Assembly (NCBI RefSeq): GCF_900105345.1
Contig: NZ_FNSN01000003.1
Coordinates: 992,001 to 1,056,000 of the forward strand
Direction of reading: 5' to 3'
Length of the DNA: 64,000 bases
Source of the DNA: Arthrobacter woluwensis
GTDB taxonomy: Bacteria; Actinomycetota; Actinomycetes; Actinomycetales; Micrococcaceae
Part shown: piece by piece, positions 37,760 through 48,248 of the stretch
Position numbering within the stretch: position 1 is the first letter of the stretch
Layout of the letters: every line of letters starts with the position of its first letter
Translations under genes and position numbers: made by a program
Notes under the pieces: model-generated
What the model was told of the DNA's origin: nothing
Seen by the model: the letters and a program-made list of their open reading frames with translations, nothing else
Database searches by the model: none

Positions 37760-40467
<2,708 letters not shown>

Positions 40468-40473
40468 GACCCC

Positions 40474-40503
40474 ATTCAAGCACTTATTTTGACTAGCTCG
40501 CAA
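40474..40503 (-). promoter_or_regulatory. Predicted leaderless promoter of the furA-katG operon
   Basis: On the reverse strand TTGCGA (40498-40503), an 18-bp spacer and TTGAAT (40474-40479) are followed by 6 nt and the start codon. The spacer is AT-rich, unlike its surroundings, and includes TAGTCAAAATAAG, a likely place for Fur-family binding. Confidence 0.48.
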
Positions 40504-40554: not shown

Positions 40555-41391
40555 TCAGGACTCGACGATCCTCTGATTCGTATTGGTGTAACTGATCGAG
40601 TCGGCGGTGCTTCCCACCAGACCCATCGTGACCCGCAGGAGTCCCGGCGCGACGTCGTCCAGCGGGGGCGGCGTGTCGGTGCCGAGCGTGAGCGAGCGGC
40701 CGCCCGCCGTCGTCGCGGTGACGGAGCCGAGGTACACGTCGACGTGGCCTTCGAGCTTCATGGTGTCCGCCGTGGTGACCAGGCCGGGGCCGTTCGGAGG
40801 CCGGACGGTGAGGGAGAAGCCGGTGATGGTGATCGAGTCGGCGCTGATCTTCAGCGCGCGCACGCTCCCGCCGTCGACGGTCGGCACCGAGACGATCCCG
40901 ATCGAGTGCAGGCCGGTGAACGAGAGCCCGCGGGAGCCGAGGGAGGCGGGCGTCCTGGTGAAGATCGGGGCACCGTCCTCCCGGGTGGCCTTCACGGGCT
41001 TCTTCGGGGAGGGCTTGGCGCTGGGGGACGGATGAGCAGGATCGGAGGGCGCGGACGACGGCGATCCGCCGGGCTCCTGCGCGCCGGTTCCCGGGGTGCC
41101 GGCTCCCGGGGTGCCAGGCAGGGGGATGCTCGGCGTGGGGATGCCGGGCGCGCCGCCGGACCCGTTCCCGGGGGTGCCGGGTGTCCCGGCGCCAGGGGCG
41201 GGGGTGGTCGCAGAAGGCTTGGGCGTTCCGGGGGTGGGGGACGGCGTCGGGGAGTCGCAGGTGAAGAGGATGGGGAGGCAGAAAGCTGCGGGCTGGGTCG
41301 CGGGGGCCTGGGCGGCGCCGAGGGTGAAGGGTGTCACCAGCACGGCGCCGGCCAGCAGCGCTCCCAGTCCGCGGCGGCGGCGCTGTGTCAT
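40555..41391 (-). CDS. Secreted Pro/Gly/Thr-rich protein, third gene of the DUF6230/DUF6114 operon
   Basis: This 278-residue protein has a signal peptide (residues 1-29, RRRRG then a hydrophobic core). Two cysteines (FCLPILFTCDS) follow, then a long Pro/Gly/Thr/Ser linker (about 50-150). A beta-rich C-terminal domain of about 120 residues follows, with repeated ADSITITGF and ADTMKLEGH strands. That strand pattern recalls the end of the DUF6230 protein of the same operon, so the two may share a fold. Its start overlaps the stop of the DUF6114 gene (ATGA). I do not recognise a named family. A surface location is likely. Confidence 0.65.
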   Translation of the reverse strand: MTQRRRRGLGALLAGAVLVTPFTLGAAQAPATQPAAFCLPILFTCDSPTPSPTPGTPKPSATTPAPGAGTPGTPGNGSGGAPGIPTPSIPLPGTPGAGTPGTGAQEPGGSPSSAPSDPAHPSPSAKPSPKKPVKATREDGAPIFTRTPASLGSRGLSFTGLHSIGIVSVPTVDGGSVRALKISADSITITGFSLTVRPPNGPGLVTTADTMKLEGHVDVYLGSVTATTAGGRSLTLGTDTPPPLDDVAPGLLRVTMGLVGSTADSISYTNTNQRIVES

Positions 41392-41969
41392 GAGGCGTGT
41401 TCTCCCTGGGGTGCGGGACTCCGTCTCATCCAGGCCGCCACGAGCACGCCGCCGGTCCCGGCCAGCAGCATGCCGATCAGGAAGCCGCCGAGATTCACGC
41501 CCACCAGCGAGTACACGGCGACCGCGAGGGCGAGCACGCCGTAGAACACATGGTGGTCCGGCATGGTCATCGACAGGATGCCCAGCAGCAGCAGAGCGAT
41601 CGGGATGATGGTCGCCTGCAGGCCTTCGATGCCGAGCTGGACGTGCAGGTGACCGATGTCGAGCTGGCCGGAGAAGAACATCTCCACGCCGCCGAGCGCC
41701 ACGAGAAGGCCGCCGATGAAGGGGCGCTCCTTCCGCCAGGTCCGGAAATCGCTCGCCGCGGGAGCCTCGGACGTCTCCGGCGCCTCAGTCGTTTCGGAGG
41801 CGAGGATCGACTCCAGGGGCTCCGTGGGCTCGGTCGGTTCCGCCCGGGATTCCGCGGCGGGCGTGACCGGATGCCGCAGCGTCCGGTCGGCGTCACCGCG
41901 CCGCGCCCGTCGCGAGGCCTGCGGTGTCAGGCCGTTCTCCGCCAGACTGCCGTCGCCGTTCAGAAGCAT
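41388..41969 (-). CDS. DUF6114 membrane protein
   Basis: This 193-residue protein has a polar, Glu/Pro/Thr-rich N-terminal region of about 85 residues (repeating EPTEP and TEAPE). Four closely spaced membrane helices follow (about 92-112, 118-140, 143-160 and 163-183). WRKERPFIGG before helix 1 and the Gly-rich helices fit DUF6114, a family of unknown function in actinobacteria. It overlaps the upstream DUF6230 gene by 10 nt and the downstream gene by 4 nt, so the three are translationally coupled and probably form one complex in the membrane. Confidence 0.72.
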   Translation of the reverse strand: MLLNGDGSLAENGLTPQASRRARRGDADRTLRHPVTPAAESRAEPTEPTEPLESILASETTEAPETSEAPAASDFRTWRKERPFIGGLLVALGGVEMFFSGQLDIGHLHVQLGIEGLQATIIPIALLLLGILSMTMPDHHVFYGVLALAVAVYSLVGVNLGGFLIGMLLAGTGGVLVAAWMRRSPAPQGEHAS

Positions 41970-42574
41970 CCCTTGGACCCGTCCGTCAGCTCCAGCTTCA
42001 TCCCGTTGAGGGTGAAGACGGAGGCCTGAGTGCTCCAGGCCGTCTGTTCGAGGTTCTTGATGGTGACGGTGTCGGCATCCTGGGCGAAGTCGCCGGGCGT
42101 GCCCTTCGCCGCCGTGTTGACGGTGGACGCGTCCACGCCGATGCGGATCTTGCCGAACGAGGCGTCACCCTTCAGGCCGGTCATGCCGATCTGAAGGTCG
42201 GAAGCGGAGGCGGGGTTGCCGCCGCCACCGGCCTTGATGAGCACGCCGACCTTGCCGAGGGGGGTGTCGGTGGTGACGGCTTGGCAGAGATCGCTCAGCG
42301 TGGCGCTCTTGATGTTGGCGATGGCCACGGTGTGGTTCTTGCCCTCGGTGTCTCTCGCGACGCCGGCGTACTGGGAGAAGCCGGTGCCTTCCAGTGACGA
42401 GGCGCCGATCTGGAACTGACTGCCGGAGACGGCGAAGGAGACGGGGACTGCGCCCTGGGCGATGCCGCCCATCAGAGCGCTGGCGACGAGTGCGGCGGGG
42501 ACCGCGGCGAGCACGATGCGGGCTGTGTGCGAGGAAGTGACCTTACGGAGACGCTCAGACCTGGGGAAATTCAT
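41960..42574 (-). CDS. DUF6230 secreted or membrane-anchored protein
   Basis: This 204-residue protein has a basic N-terminus and a hydrophobic segment at residues 19-42 (a signal peptide or anchor). A beta-rich domain follows, with two cysteines (LSDLC and the final KGCF) likely to pair. Motifs such as SQFQIGASSLEG, QIGMTGLKG and VFTLNGMKLELTDG fit DUF6230, an actinobacterial family often found with DUF6114. Some database entries call it cholesterol esterase, but no catalytic triad is visible. It is the first gene of a tight three-gene operon divergent from a TetR regulator. The function is unknown. Confidence 0.74.
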   Translation of the reverse strand: MNFPRSERLRKVTSSHTARIVLAAVPAALVASALMGGIAQGAVPVSFAVSGSQFQIGASSLEGTGFSQYAGVARDTEGKNHTVAIANIKSATLSDLCQAVTTDTPLGKVGVLIKAGGGGNPASASDLQIGMTGLKGDASFGKIRIGVDASTVNTAAKGTPGDFAQDADTVTIKNLEQTAWSTQASVFTLNGMKLELTDGSKGCF

Positions 42575-42623
42575 CGGACCTCCTGGAACGGGCGCCGACC
42601 CCTTCGGCGGCGCGCATGTGACG

Positions 42624-42653
42624 AAGATAACTTTTTAGTTGACTTCGAGTCAA
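42624..42653 (-). promoter_or_regulatory. Strong promoter and palindromic operator of the DUF6230 operon
   Basis: On the reverse strand TTGACT (42648-42653), an 18-bp spacer and TATCTT (42624-42629) form one of the best promoters in the window. The 15-bp perfect palindrome TTGACTTCGAGTCAA (42639-42653) covers the -35 and part of the spacer. The divergent TetR protein is the obvious candidate to bind it. Confidence 0.65.
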
Positions 42654-42764
42654 TAGTGGTCCGTCGAGGCGCGCTGCGCCGGGGCGGGGAGGATCGCCAG
42701 GGTCAGCCTGCGTCGTATGGCGTTCCGTGGCGTTCACCGTGGCCCGCGTCAGTAGACTCAGAGG

Positions 42765-45717: not shown

Positions 45718-47073
45718 CTAGGCGAAGAGCCCCTGGCCCACGTACTCGCCCGGCTTGATCCCCGGCGGCACGGCGAACAGGCCGGAACCGGTGTGCTTGA
45801 GGTACTCGACGCTCAGCCGGTCGCTGGACGCTAATCGGTTCTGCATGGGCACGAACTGCGTGCGGGGATCCCGGACGAAGGCGATGAAGAACAGGCCCGC
45901 GTCCAGCCGGCCCAGGGAGTCGTTGCCGTCCGTGAAGTTGAAGCCGCGGCGGAGCATCTTCACGCCCTTGTTCGTGGCCGCGTGCGCCAGCCGCACATGG
46001 GAGTCCATGGCGATCAGGGGTGCGTCGCCACGCCCCTTGGCCTCGAAGTTCGGCTCGGTGAACTCCTGGCCACCGGACAACGGGGCGCCGGTGGACTTGG
46101 TCCGCCCGATCACGGCCTCCTGCTCGCCGAGCGACGTCCGGTCCCAGACCTCGATGTGCATGCGGATCCTGCGCGCCACGAGGTAGCTGCCGCCGGCCAT
46201 CCACTGTTCGCCGGGCTTACCGCCCGGGGCCACCCAGACGTGCTCGGCCAGCTGCGCCGGTTCCTCCGCCTTGAGGTTGGCGGTGCCGTCCTTGAAGCCG
46301 AAGAGGTTGCGGGGCGTCTGCTGGCTGGTGGACGTGGAGGACGTCCGGCCGAAGCCCAGCTGGGACCAGCGCAGCCGGGCCCGGCCGAAGGCGATGCGGG
46401 ACAGGTTGCGGATCGCGTGGACGGCCACCTGCGGGTCGTCCGCGCACGCCTGGATGACCAGATCCCCGCCCGTGCGCTGAGGTTCCAGCTGATCGCCCGG
46501 GAAGTGCGGGAGCTCGATGAGCGCCTCCGGAAGGCGGCCGGAGAGACCGAAGCGGGGCGCGCCGTCGTCGGTCAGGAAGAAGGAGCGGCCGAAACCGAAC
46601 GTGATGGTCAGGTTCGACGCGGAGAGGCCCATGGCCTCGCCGGTGTCCGACGGCGGGGCCTCGTAGTCGCCGCCCACGGCGCCGCCTTCGCCGGCCTCAC
46701 GCCCTGCGGCCATCGCCTCCGCGGCAGCCGTCCAGTCCTTCAGGAGGCCGACGACGTCGTCCCGGCTCGTGGCGGTGACGTCGAAGGCCGCGATGTGCAG
46801 GCGGTCCTGGACCGGCGTCACGATCCCGGCCTGATGCTCGCCGTGGAACGGGACGACGGCGGAGGCCGCGGGCTGCGCGTCGGCGCCGGACGGGCGCGTG
46901 ACGGCGTAGCTCGCGGCGGCGCCGATGGCGCCCGCGCCGACCAGCGACGCGGTGGTGAGGAGCCCGCGCCGGCTGACCCGCGGGCCGGAGGACGACGGAA
47001 CGCCCGCCGTCTCCTGGGAGGTGGTCTCCTGGGAGGCGGCGGGCGGGACCGGGGTGCTGTCCTGCTCGGGCAT
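45718..47073 (-). CDS. efeB: Tat-exported DyP-type haem peroxidase (EfeB)
   Basis: This 451-residue protein has a polar lead, a twin-arginine signal (SRRGLLTTASLVGAG near residues 34-48) and a DyP peroxidase domain. Key marks are GFKDGTAN (the distal Asp motif), IEVWDRTSLGEQE with the distal Arg, and SHVRLAH with the proximal haem histidine. In EfeUOB systems it oxidises ferrous iron or takes iron from haem outside the membrane. It follows efeO by 2 bp on the same strand and ends the operon. Length and order efeU-efeO-efeB are standard. Iron regulation is expected. Confidence 0.92.
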   Translation of the reverse strand: MPEQDSTPVPPAASQETTSQETAGVPSSSGPRVSRRGLLTTASLVGAGAIGAAASYAVTRPSGADAQPAASAVVPFHGEHQAGIVTPVQDRLHIAAFDVTATSRDDVVGLLKDWTAAAEAMAAGREAGEGGAVGGDYEAPPSDTGEAMGLSASNLTITFGFGRSFFLTDDGAPRFGLSGRLPEALIELPHFPGDQLEPQRTGGDLVIQACADDPQVAVHAIRNLSRIAFGRARLRWSQLGFGRTSSTSTSQQTPRNLFGFKDGTANLKAEEPAQLAEHVWVAPGGKPGEQWMAGGSYLVARRIRMHIEVWDRTSLGEQEAVIGRTKSTGAPLSGGQEFTEPNFEAKGRGDAPLIAMDSHVRLAHAATNKGVKMLRRGFNFTDGNDSLGRLDAGLFFIAFVRDPRTQFVPMQNRLASSDRLSVEYLKHTGSGLFAVPPGIKPGEYVGQGLFA

Positions 47074-47075
47074 GG

Positions 47076-48248
47076 TCAGAGGACCACCGCGGCGGTCAGC
47101 TGGCCGAGGGGTTCGCCGAGGGCGTCCACCAGGGCGGCGAGCTGCTTGACCTGGTCGGGGGTCAGCTCGTTGTAGTACTTGAAGCCGTCGCCGACCTTGT
47201 ACTTGTCCAGCTCGGTCTGCAGGGCCGCGAACCGCTGATCCAGGGTCTTGGCCAGTTCGGGCTTCTTGAGGGCGACCACGGGGCGGAGGTTCTGGTAGGC
47301 GATGCGCGCGCCGTCGACGTTGGCCTGGAAGTCCCAGAGGTCGGTGTGGGACCAGATCTCCTCTTCGCCGGTCACCTTGCCGGTGGCGACCTCGTCCAGG
47401 AGCTCCTTGGCTCCGTTGCCGAGCTTGTCCGGGGTCAGGGTCAGCGTGCGGGTCCGCTCGAACAGCGTCTGGGTGTCCGCCACGAGTTTCTGGGACAGCT
47501 TCTGGCGTTCGGCCGCGGTGAGCGCGGTGTAGCCCTTCGGCGGGAAGAGATCCTTCTCGGCCTTGTGCCAGCCGGTCCACTGCTGACCCTTCTCCAGGTC
47601 GGCCTCGCGGAGGTCGAGGCTGGGGTCGAGATCGCCGAACGACTCGGCCACGGGCTCGATGCGCTCCCAGTGCATGCGGACCGAGGCGTAGAGGGTGCGG
47701 GCCTTCGCGGCGTCACCGGAGGCGTAGGCGGCCGCGAAGGCCTTGGTGCCGGTGAGCAACTGCTCGGTCTGGTCCTTGACGTAGGAGACGTACTGCTTGG
47801 TGGCGGTGTCCAGGAGTGCCTTGGTGTCCGAGTCCACGGAGGCGGTGGTGCCGGATGCCTCGACGGTGAAGGCCGAACGGATGCCCTCGCCCTGCATGCC
47901 GGGCTTGCAGGCGGTGAGGTACTTGCCCTCGGGAGCGGTCACCACGAGCTTGCGGGACAGGCCGGGGCCGATGTTCTCGACTTCTCCGACGATCCGCAGG
48001 CCGTCCTCGGCCAGAAGGTAGAACTCGGTGACCTGCTGGCCGTCGTTCTTCACCTCGAACGTCAGGTGGCCGCTCTTCGCCGTGACGGTGCTGAGTTTGC
48101 ACTCCTTGTCCGTGCTGCTCACGGAGATCGGACCGTCCGTGGCGCCGGCGGCCGGCTTGGCGTTGTCCGTGCAGGCGGTCAGCGCCAGGGGAGCGACGAC
48201 GGCGAGGACCGCGAGGGAGCTGAGGGCGCGGCGAGGGGAAGCGGGCAT
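47076..48248 (-). CDS. efeO: Iron uptake lipoprotein EfeO (cupredoxin plus M75 domain)
   Basis: This 390-residue protein has a lipoprotein signal ending in LTAC (Cys26). An EfeO-type cupredoxin domain (about 40-135, with FEVKNDGQQVTEFYL and the late CKPGM) is followed by an M75 peptidase-like helical domain. That domain contains the metal-binding HxxE motif in MHWERIEPVAESFGDLDP. It should bind iron outside the membrane and pass it to the permease EfeU. The start at 48248 has AAGGA 5-6 nt upstream. The longer frame to 49268 runs through efeU and is not real. It lies 32 bp after efeU. Confidence 0.92.
   Translation of the reverse strand: MPASPRRALSSLAVLAVVAPLALTACTDNAKPAAGATDGPISVSSTDKECKLSTVTAKSGHLTFEVKNDGQQVTEFYLLAEDGLRIVGEVENIGPGLSRKLVVTAPEGKYLTACKPGMQGEGIRSAFTVEASGTTASVDSDTKALLDTATKQYVSYVKDQTEQLLTGTKAFAAAYASGDAAKARTLYASVRMHWERIEPVAESFGDLDPSLDLREADLEKGQQWTGWHKAEKDLFPPKGYTALTAAERQKLSQKLVADTQTLFERTRTLTLTPDKLGNGAKELLDEVATGKVTGEEEIWSHTDLWDFQANVDGARIAYQNLRPVVALKKPELAKTLDQRFAALQTELDKYKVGDGFKYYNELTPDQVKQLAALVDALGEPLGQLTAAVVL

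Follow-up and report, generated by a model that had tools for sequence, protein, structure and literature searches.

What do three overlapping genes, two of them from families that Pfam lists as a 'family of unknown function', do for the actinobacteria that keep them side by side? The question is raised by a 64,000-nucleotide stretch of the Arthrobacter woluwensis genome (contig NZ_FNSN01000003.1, forward-strand positions 992,001 to 1,056,000), here called the window, in which genes for a DUF6230 protein, a DUF6114 protein and an otherwise unnamed proline-rich protein, P3, lie on one strand with a gene for a TetR-family regulator diverging from them. That DUF6230, DUF6114 and P3 form a conserved unit across many actinobacteria is well supported, and the divergent regulator very probably has its operator in a palindrome over the promoter. 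For the function of the unit the preferred answer is tentative, its chances being put somewhat below even: a repressor-controlled cell-envelope module that binds or moves acyl lipids.

Three overlapping genes

The features concerned, in window coordinates, are as follows.

41960..42574, minus strand: DUF6230 gene, 204 amino acids (open reading frame and Pfam)
41388..41969, minus strand: DUF6114 membrane protein gene, 193 amino acids (open reading frame and Pfam), overlapping the DUF6230 gene by 10 bases
40555..41391, minus strand: P3 gene (open reading frame), overlapping the DUF6114 gene by 4 bases
40558..40989, minus strand: C-terminal domain of P3, 144 residues folded, predicted beta
42579..42584, minus strand: ribosome-binding site AGGAGG for DUF6230, read from the sequence
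42624..42653, minus strand: promoter, with −35 box TTGACT at 42653-42648, spacer of 18 bases and −10 box TATCTT at 42629-42624
42639-42653, given on the plus strand: palindrome TTGACTTCGAGTCAA, the likely TetR operator, of the form TTGAC-N5-GTCAA
42765..43376, plus strand: divergent TetR-family regulator gene (TetR_N, TetR_C_46)

The open reading frames bear out the first-pass annotation, made from the sequence by a model, in placing three overlapping genes here, and Pfam agrees with its naming of the first two. DUF6230 matches PF19741 at 8.5e-47 (159.5 bits against a curated cut-off of 27.5) and DUF6114 matches PF19609 at 7.5e-31 (107.4 bits against 27.9); the whole genome holds one match of each. 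While these two pass the curated cut-offs of known families, their partner P3 gives zero Pfam or NCBIfam matches at E 0.1 or better.

DUF6230 has a single hydrophobic N-terminal segment (residues 20-38), after which comes a domain predicted to be nearly all beta; Cys97 and Cys203 are conserved. DUF6114 had been described as a four-helix membrane protein with an acidic tail. It is a membrane protein, but just two of its segments are over a strict hydropathy cut-off, which leaves the four helices doubtful; the acidic part is N-terminal in A. woluwensis and the tail has to be given up. P3 runs from a hydrophobic N-terminal segment (9-27) through a linker rich in proline, glycine and serine to its C-terminal beta domain. 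In comparison with three genomes of the same genus, the ratio of nonsynonymous to synonymous substitution rates (dN/dS) is 0.10-0.18 for DUF6230, 0.09-0.23 for DUF6114 (one comparison spans 125 of the 193 residues) and 0.23-0.41 for P3, the least constrained of the three proteins. Values of 0.09-0.41 throughout are in keeping with real genes under purifying selection.

A unit kept together

A DUF6230 profile search of 84,980 species genomes found at least 545 relatives, of which the best 80 were kept as loci (from Microbacterium, Leifsonia, Sinomonas, Arthrobacter, Brevibacterium, Cryobacterium, Curtobacterium, Promicromonospora, Micromonospora and other genera; loci of one genus are non-independent rows). 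DUF6114 lies behind DUF6230 on the same strand in all 80, with at most 188 bases between the matched stretches, and the P3 C-terminal domain comes next in 78, though in one of these (L055) only part of it is there. Both loci without it (L064 and L074) break off there with their contigs. A natural fusion, with DUF6114 and P3 in a single stop-to-stop reading frame, occurs in 18 of the 78 (L113 for example). The unit is thus conserved far beyond A. woluwensis, and the first-pass remark that DUF6230 and DUF6114 often travel together holds at every locus kept.

The neighbours were clustered from frames of at least 180 amino acids in 30 of the 80 loci, hand-picked to spread over genera. The DUF6230 and DUF6114 clusters span all 30 and the TetR cluster 22. 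Two more large clusters, of 26 and 23 loci, consist, judged by position, of frames antisense to the module, and among the 22 largest clusters listed no further one exceeds 5 of the 30. Over the full set a TetR gene accompanies the module in 55 of the 80 loci.

The gene following the TetR gene in A. woluwensis, for a transporter of the major facilitator superfamily (MFS), had been counted at first pass as the exporter of the system. It does not belong there: it is kept as a neighbour in three same-genus genomes, the only ones with strong matches, and among the 80 loci it has weak matches in 5. Candidate partners katG and fur do worse still, at 1 and 0 of the 80. (In the window a catalase-peroxidase-like gene, KatG by eye, lies directly downstream of the module at 37760-40503 on the minus strand, behind a Fur-family regulator gene; further off, at 45718-47580 on the minus strand, a frame resembles, again by eye, a Dyp-type peroxidase of the EfeB kind exported by the twin-arginine (Tat) route.)

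A TetR gene beside a surface operon, with an MFS gene adjoining it in this genus, would also fit a module for envelope stress or antimicrobial protection, in which an amphiphile or an antibiotic would be sensed by the TetR protein and the envelope protected or mended by the surface proteins. Two Rhodococcus plasmids (L162 and L163), where DUF6230 and DUF6114 lie near glycosyltransferase genes and a BrkB-type envelope-integrity gene, point the same way. The MFS gene, however, is not conserved with the module, and no stress gene recurs among the neighbours in the 30 loci; protection from stress is judged an unlikely account.

How widely the genes occur was gauged in 396 genomes drawn evenly from the phylum. 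DUF6114 is found in 26 (24 over cut-off), DUF6230 in 22 and P3 in at least 14, a lower bound as 10 candidates per genome were scored, and the occurrence is nested, the P3 set inside the DUF6230 set and that inside the DUF6114 set. Of the four genomes that have DUF6114 but no listed DUF6230, two show a DUF6230-like frame next to DUF6114 (L030 and L032). Within the family of A. woluwensis, 4 of 4 genomes of its own genus carry the DUF6230 of the module and 0 of 33 others do, and in the rest of the order 2 of 22; the P3 domain is in all 61 sampled genomes of a Streptomyces-like genus. The DUF6230-DUF6114 pair, at least, is present in several actinobacterial orders. A phage origin was considered and dropped, 110 pattern matches in viral contigs having yielded zero relatives by tblastn.

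Variants of the arrangement exist. One genome of the same order has three DUF6230 and two DUF6114 matches in a tandem cluster (G037:C1:1951313-1955578), and Streptomyces-like genomes carry a second type of DUF6230-DUF6114 pair (L015-L020, L022, L139); at L139 no P3 domain was found with this pair, which has a terpene synthase gene at a distance of about 5 kb.

A probable operator over the promoter

A palindrome over the −35 box of a promoter TTGACT-18-TATCTT had been pointed out at first pass, and it is indeed where it was said to be, covering the −35 box of the DUF6230 promoter. In the 64-kb window alone this would mean little, as TTGAC-N5-GTCAA with up to one mismatch is not rare there (mean 0.74 in shuffles). 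The best such site was sought at each locus in a 275-base region that takes in the DUF6230 start and sequence upstream of it. Counting the 80 loci and the window, less L083 (a duplicated contig with its best match on the reverse strand), gives 56 regions with a TetR gene and 24 without, L111 being scored among the latter though its contig gives about 385 bases upstream. The exact site occurs in 39 of the 56 and in 0 of the 24, and with up to one mismatch in 46 against 3 (Fisher p 5e-9, nominal as the rows are related). Dinucleotide shuffles reach one mismatch or fewer in 0.4% and 0.8%; chance falls far short of explaining how often the site recurs in front of DUF6230 in other genera.

The 46 sites with up to one mismatch share a footprint. 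The arms carry 1.5-2.0 bits, a figure inflated by the sites having been chosen by their arms; 1.5-1.65 bits fall on a TA before the left arm, to which that choice did not extend, and 0.1-0.2 bits on the five central bases. A TAnnnT box stands 16-18 bases behind the −35 box in 41 of the 46, against 1.9% of background positions. A role as −35 box could keep the left arm, but not the right one; the pattern is that of a repressor site overlapping the promoter.

The A. woluwensis genome has five exact sites, against one in a reversed-pattern control. Besides that of the module, and with protein names assigned by eye, one is just upstream of the superoxide dismutase-like gene sodA (G000:C3:2336734-2336748; L151, about 2235-2249), one close to a MerR-type gene, another in the gap that separates an AraC-type gene from a gene for a small secreted protein, and one inside a tRNA-Pro gene.

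A group of Brevibacterium loci (L052-L054, L065-L067, L073, L076, L079, L080, L084, L085, L087) has neither a TetR homologue nor the exact palindrome. They share another promoter-side motif upstream of DUF6230, by eye roughly AGTAACNTACGTCACA, which suggests a different regulator.

The regulator and its possible ligand

The TetR_N helix-turn-helix domain of the divergent regulator scores 47 bits against a cut-off of 24. Its closest solved structure is 2qib_A, a TetR protein without a specific name (1e-19), followed by FasR (6o6p and 6o6n, 2e-9 to 3e-9) and others, and FasR is also its best NCBIfam match. As 6O6N is FasR with acyl-CoA (PMC7382501), the likeness to this acyl-CoA-sensing regulator makes an acyl-type ligand a reasonable guess and no more.

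A probable counterpart in Streptomyces coelicolor

Pyruvate kinase genes link the module to S. coelicolor by gene order. In all four P3-bearing Streptomyces-like loci among those studied (L135-L138) a pyruvate kinase gene adjoins P3, called by signature and Pfam at three and by tblastn at the fourth. Among the 15 best P3 loci of the Streptomyces-like genus (one genome, G226, is shared with the four), DUF6114 precedes P3 in 15 and a pyruvate kinase frame lies inside the 1.5-kb flank in 11. At the two loci checked (L136 and L138) the genes on the far side of pyruvate kinase are those for acetate kinase and phosphotransacetylase; in S. coelicolor ackA and pta lie behind the pyruvate kinase gene pyk2. 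Thioredoxin-TPR and mutase genes are on the other side of L136.

In S. coelicolor pyk2 is SCO5423, and SCO5420, annotated as a cholesterol esterase, was induced almost 37-fold on Tween 40 relative to glucose, according to PMC7494193. Because three locus numbers separate SCO5420 from pyk2, as three genes do in the Streptomyces-like loci, SCO5420-SCO5422 should be DUF6230-DUF6114-P3, by gene order only. By this order the same three genes lie beside a pyruvate kinase gene; the Streptomyces-like loci differ from A. woluwensis, with its divergent TetR gene and palindromic promoter, in neighbourhood and in that no TetR homologue was found beside the module. The first-pass statement that the two families have no known role needs amending through this annotation and induction. 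Tween is itself a surfactant, which speaks for the envelope-stress alternative as well.

Is DUF6230, then, simply an enzyme? On this account it would be a true secreted acyl-ester (cholesterol) esterase of actinomycete type, with DUF6114 and P3 assisting its export or its retention at the surface for the use of esters, be they Tween or other lipids. The annotation and induction of SCO5420 favour it. A 2007 paper reportedly described a novel family of actinomycete cholesterol esterases, from which the label may stem; its existence lends the account some support, and its enzyme is possibly DUF6230. No tie to DUF6230 could be made for the proteins called 'cholesterol esterase' in S. scabiei (C9Z6Y6), SirexAA-E and S. 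venezuelae, which are leads only. In 73 DUF6230 sequences Ser50, Cys97 and Cys203 reach 90% conservation, but no His, Asp or Glu does (best His column 81%, best acidic columns 89%), and so the conserved Ser-His-Asp/Glu triad of serine esterases is not found. Esterases typically have the alpha/beta hydrolase fold, unlike the beta model of DUF6230. Together, the lack of a conserved triad and the beta model argue against a classical serine esterase and leave room for an unusual one; the esterase account is improbable, to about the same degree as that of envelope stress.

The same label turns up where another explanation finds its support. The consecutive S. pratensis genes Sfla_1909-1911, annotated in turn as 'hypothetical', 'hypothetical' and 'cholesterol esterase', belong to a set of 59 core genes with high divergence within the species (PMC4239341). 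If they are the module, it might be a surface structure that serves encounters with other organisms, through adhesion, competition or phage, and becomes diverse inside a species, with an incidental part for lipids; that P3 is the least constrained protein by dN/dS would agree with this. The identification of Sfla_1909-1911 with the module comes from the annotation pattern only, however, and dN/dS is well below 1 for all three genes in Arthrobacter; a contact role seems the least likely of the three alternatives.

Elsewhere in the literature searched, most subscription journals being outside it, no functional study of the module families turned up. DUF6230 or DUF6114 appears there in one paper, as a promoter donor, and SCO5420, SCO5421 or SCO5422 likewise in one.

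Predicted structures

Structure prediction, which had been proposed along with the first-pass annotation, gives beta folds for both the DUF6230 and the P3 domains. The folding input was 56 of 81 sequences for DUF6230 and 59 of 76 for the P3 domain, three loci having been left out beforehand. The DUF6230 model has a mean predicted local distance difference test (pLDDT) score of 75.4, with ten-residue means of 69-93 from residue 51 on, and is nearly all beta. That of the P3 domain (pLDDT 84.1, predicted template modelling score 0.77) is beta as well, and two of its strands are 21 and 25 residues long.

Against solved structures DUF6230 finds nothing above Z 2.7 by VIA and no Foldseek E under 0.001, and its profile run against PDB sequences returns MoaC chains only, at E 0.26. 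For the P3 domain there is no match to PDB sequences at E up to 1 and no accepted Pfam match among 59 members, whose weak matches are scattered over nine families (LmeA in 1 of 59 at E 0.05 and SCP2 in 2 of 59 at E 0.044 are included). The top VIA row for the P3 domain, of 996 aligned chains, is LptC (6mit_C, Z 3.4, root-mean-square deviation 2.9 over 67 residues), followed by LptC 9dor_C (Z 3.0), LptA 8gak_A (Z 2.8) and an SMP domain (Z 2.3); beta proteins with no relation to these come directly after, and a family beyond those listed may fit as well. The best Foldseek E, 0.11, is to a protein other than LptA or LptC. The likeness to LptA and LptC consists in these first rows and in a beta domain probably outside the membrane. 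Set against it are a Z far too low for a claim of shared fold, the lack of any match to PDB sequences and of any LptA or LptC family among the Pfam matches at E 0.1 or better in the 59 members, and the fact that no ABC transporter gene accompanies the module in over 5 of the 30 loci.

Are DUF6230 and P3 kin to each other? Their end strands had been thought alike at first pass, and the impression may be right, though as yet it is a hint only and not established. Direct profile comparison (hhalign) gives a probability of 0.7% and wider profiles 3.0-6.3%, but the P3 profile against seven divergent DUF6230-like proteins of another class gives 40.3% (score 29.1 over 34 columns). This divergent group matches the mature DUF6230 profile at 95.6%, with PF19741 confirmed in the two members tested. 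In column-shuffled controls 59 of 60 score at most 16.5 against the true 29.1, and at most 21.2 against the mature DUF6230 profile, where the true score is 21.8. One control scored 133 and 137, above the true score, over 12-13 columns at the model end with 0% identity in the alignment; it looks like a program artefact. The matched stretch falls in a 21-residue strand in both models.

What the module may do

The following course of events is proposed. The TetR protein would bind TTGAC-N5-GTCAA over the −35 box and so block transcription, until a small hydrophobic ligand, probably of acyl type, releases it. The operon would then yield the exported beta protein DUF6230, the membrane protein DUF6114, and P3 as a membrane-tethered stalk that holds its beta domain outside the membrane. 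P3 would work joined to DUF6114 or bound by it, and the three together might bind acyl lipids or surfactants at the cell surface or hand them on. A physical association of DUF6114 and P3 is indicated by the loci that encode them in one reading frame. Of the 'regulated surface complex' proposed at first pass, the unit and the operator are well supported and a complex of DUF6114 with P3 appears likely, while DUF6230 as a part of it is unproven.

Several findings weigh against the acyl-lipid module as drawn. On the side of regulation, 25 of the 80 loci show no TetR homologue (L111, with its short upstream sequence, among them), and none was found beside the module in the Streptomyces-like loci L135-L140. 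Ten of the 56 regions with a TetR gene lack a site within one mismatch (8 of the 10, Promicromonospora included, have a degenerate form ending TCAGTA), and the one-mismatch sites in the 3 regions without the gene belong to two Brevibacterium loci and L091. The four exact genomic sites away from the module have no common theme, and a wider regulon is accordingly rejected. As to the ligand, the match to FasR is 51.9 bits, far under the 330-bit cut-off, EthR is close behind FasR among the solved relatives (about 1e-7), and FasR is described as an activator. As to function, the structural matches are all weak (every Z below 5, no Foldseek E reaching 0.001), the Tween 40 induction is one gene under one condition, and the literature searched holds no binding, deletion or lipid data for the module. 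Still, it is a lipid role that best joins the Tween induction, the relatives of the regulator and the beta models, though its chances are likewise put somewhat below even.

A more specific form of the lipid role is a transfer device, in which the P3 beta domain on a DUF6114 stalk and the secreted DUF6230 would make a beta bridge on which acyl lipids travel between the membrane and the surface, with an acyl-sensing TetR repressor in control. In its working such a bridge would be comparable to the Lpt bridge of Gram-negative bacteria, to which kinship is not claimed; so detailed a picture is distinctly unlikely, more so than either the stress or the esterase account.

Implications

The link by gene order puts a pair of 'unknown function' into S. 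coelicolor, which is genetically tractable, with a known inducing condition, and relatives of the module offer a defined operator. The 'cholesterol esterase' label is called into question, and a third, unlisted domain, that of P3, is added to the DUF6230-DUF6114 system.

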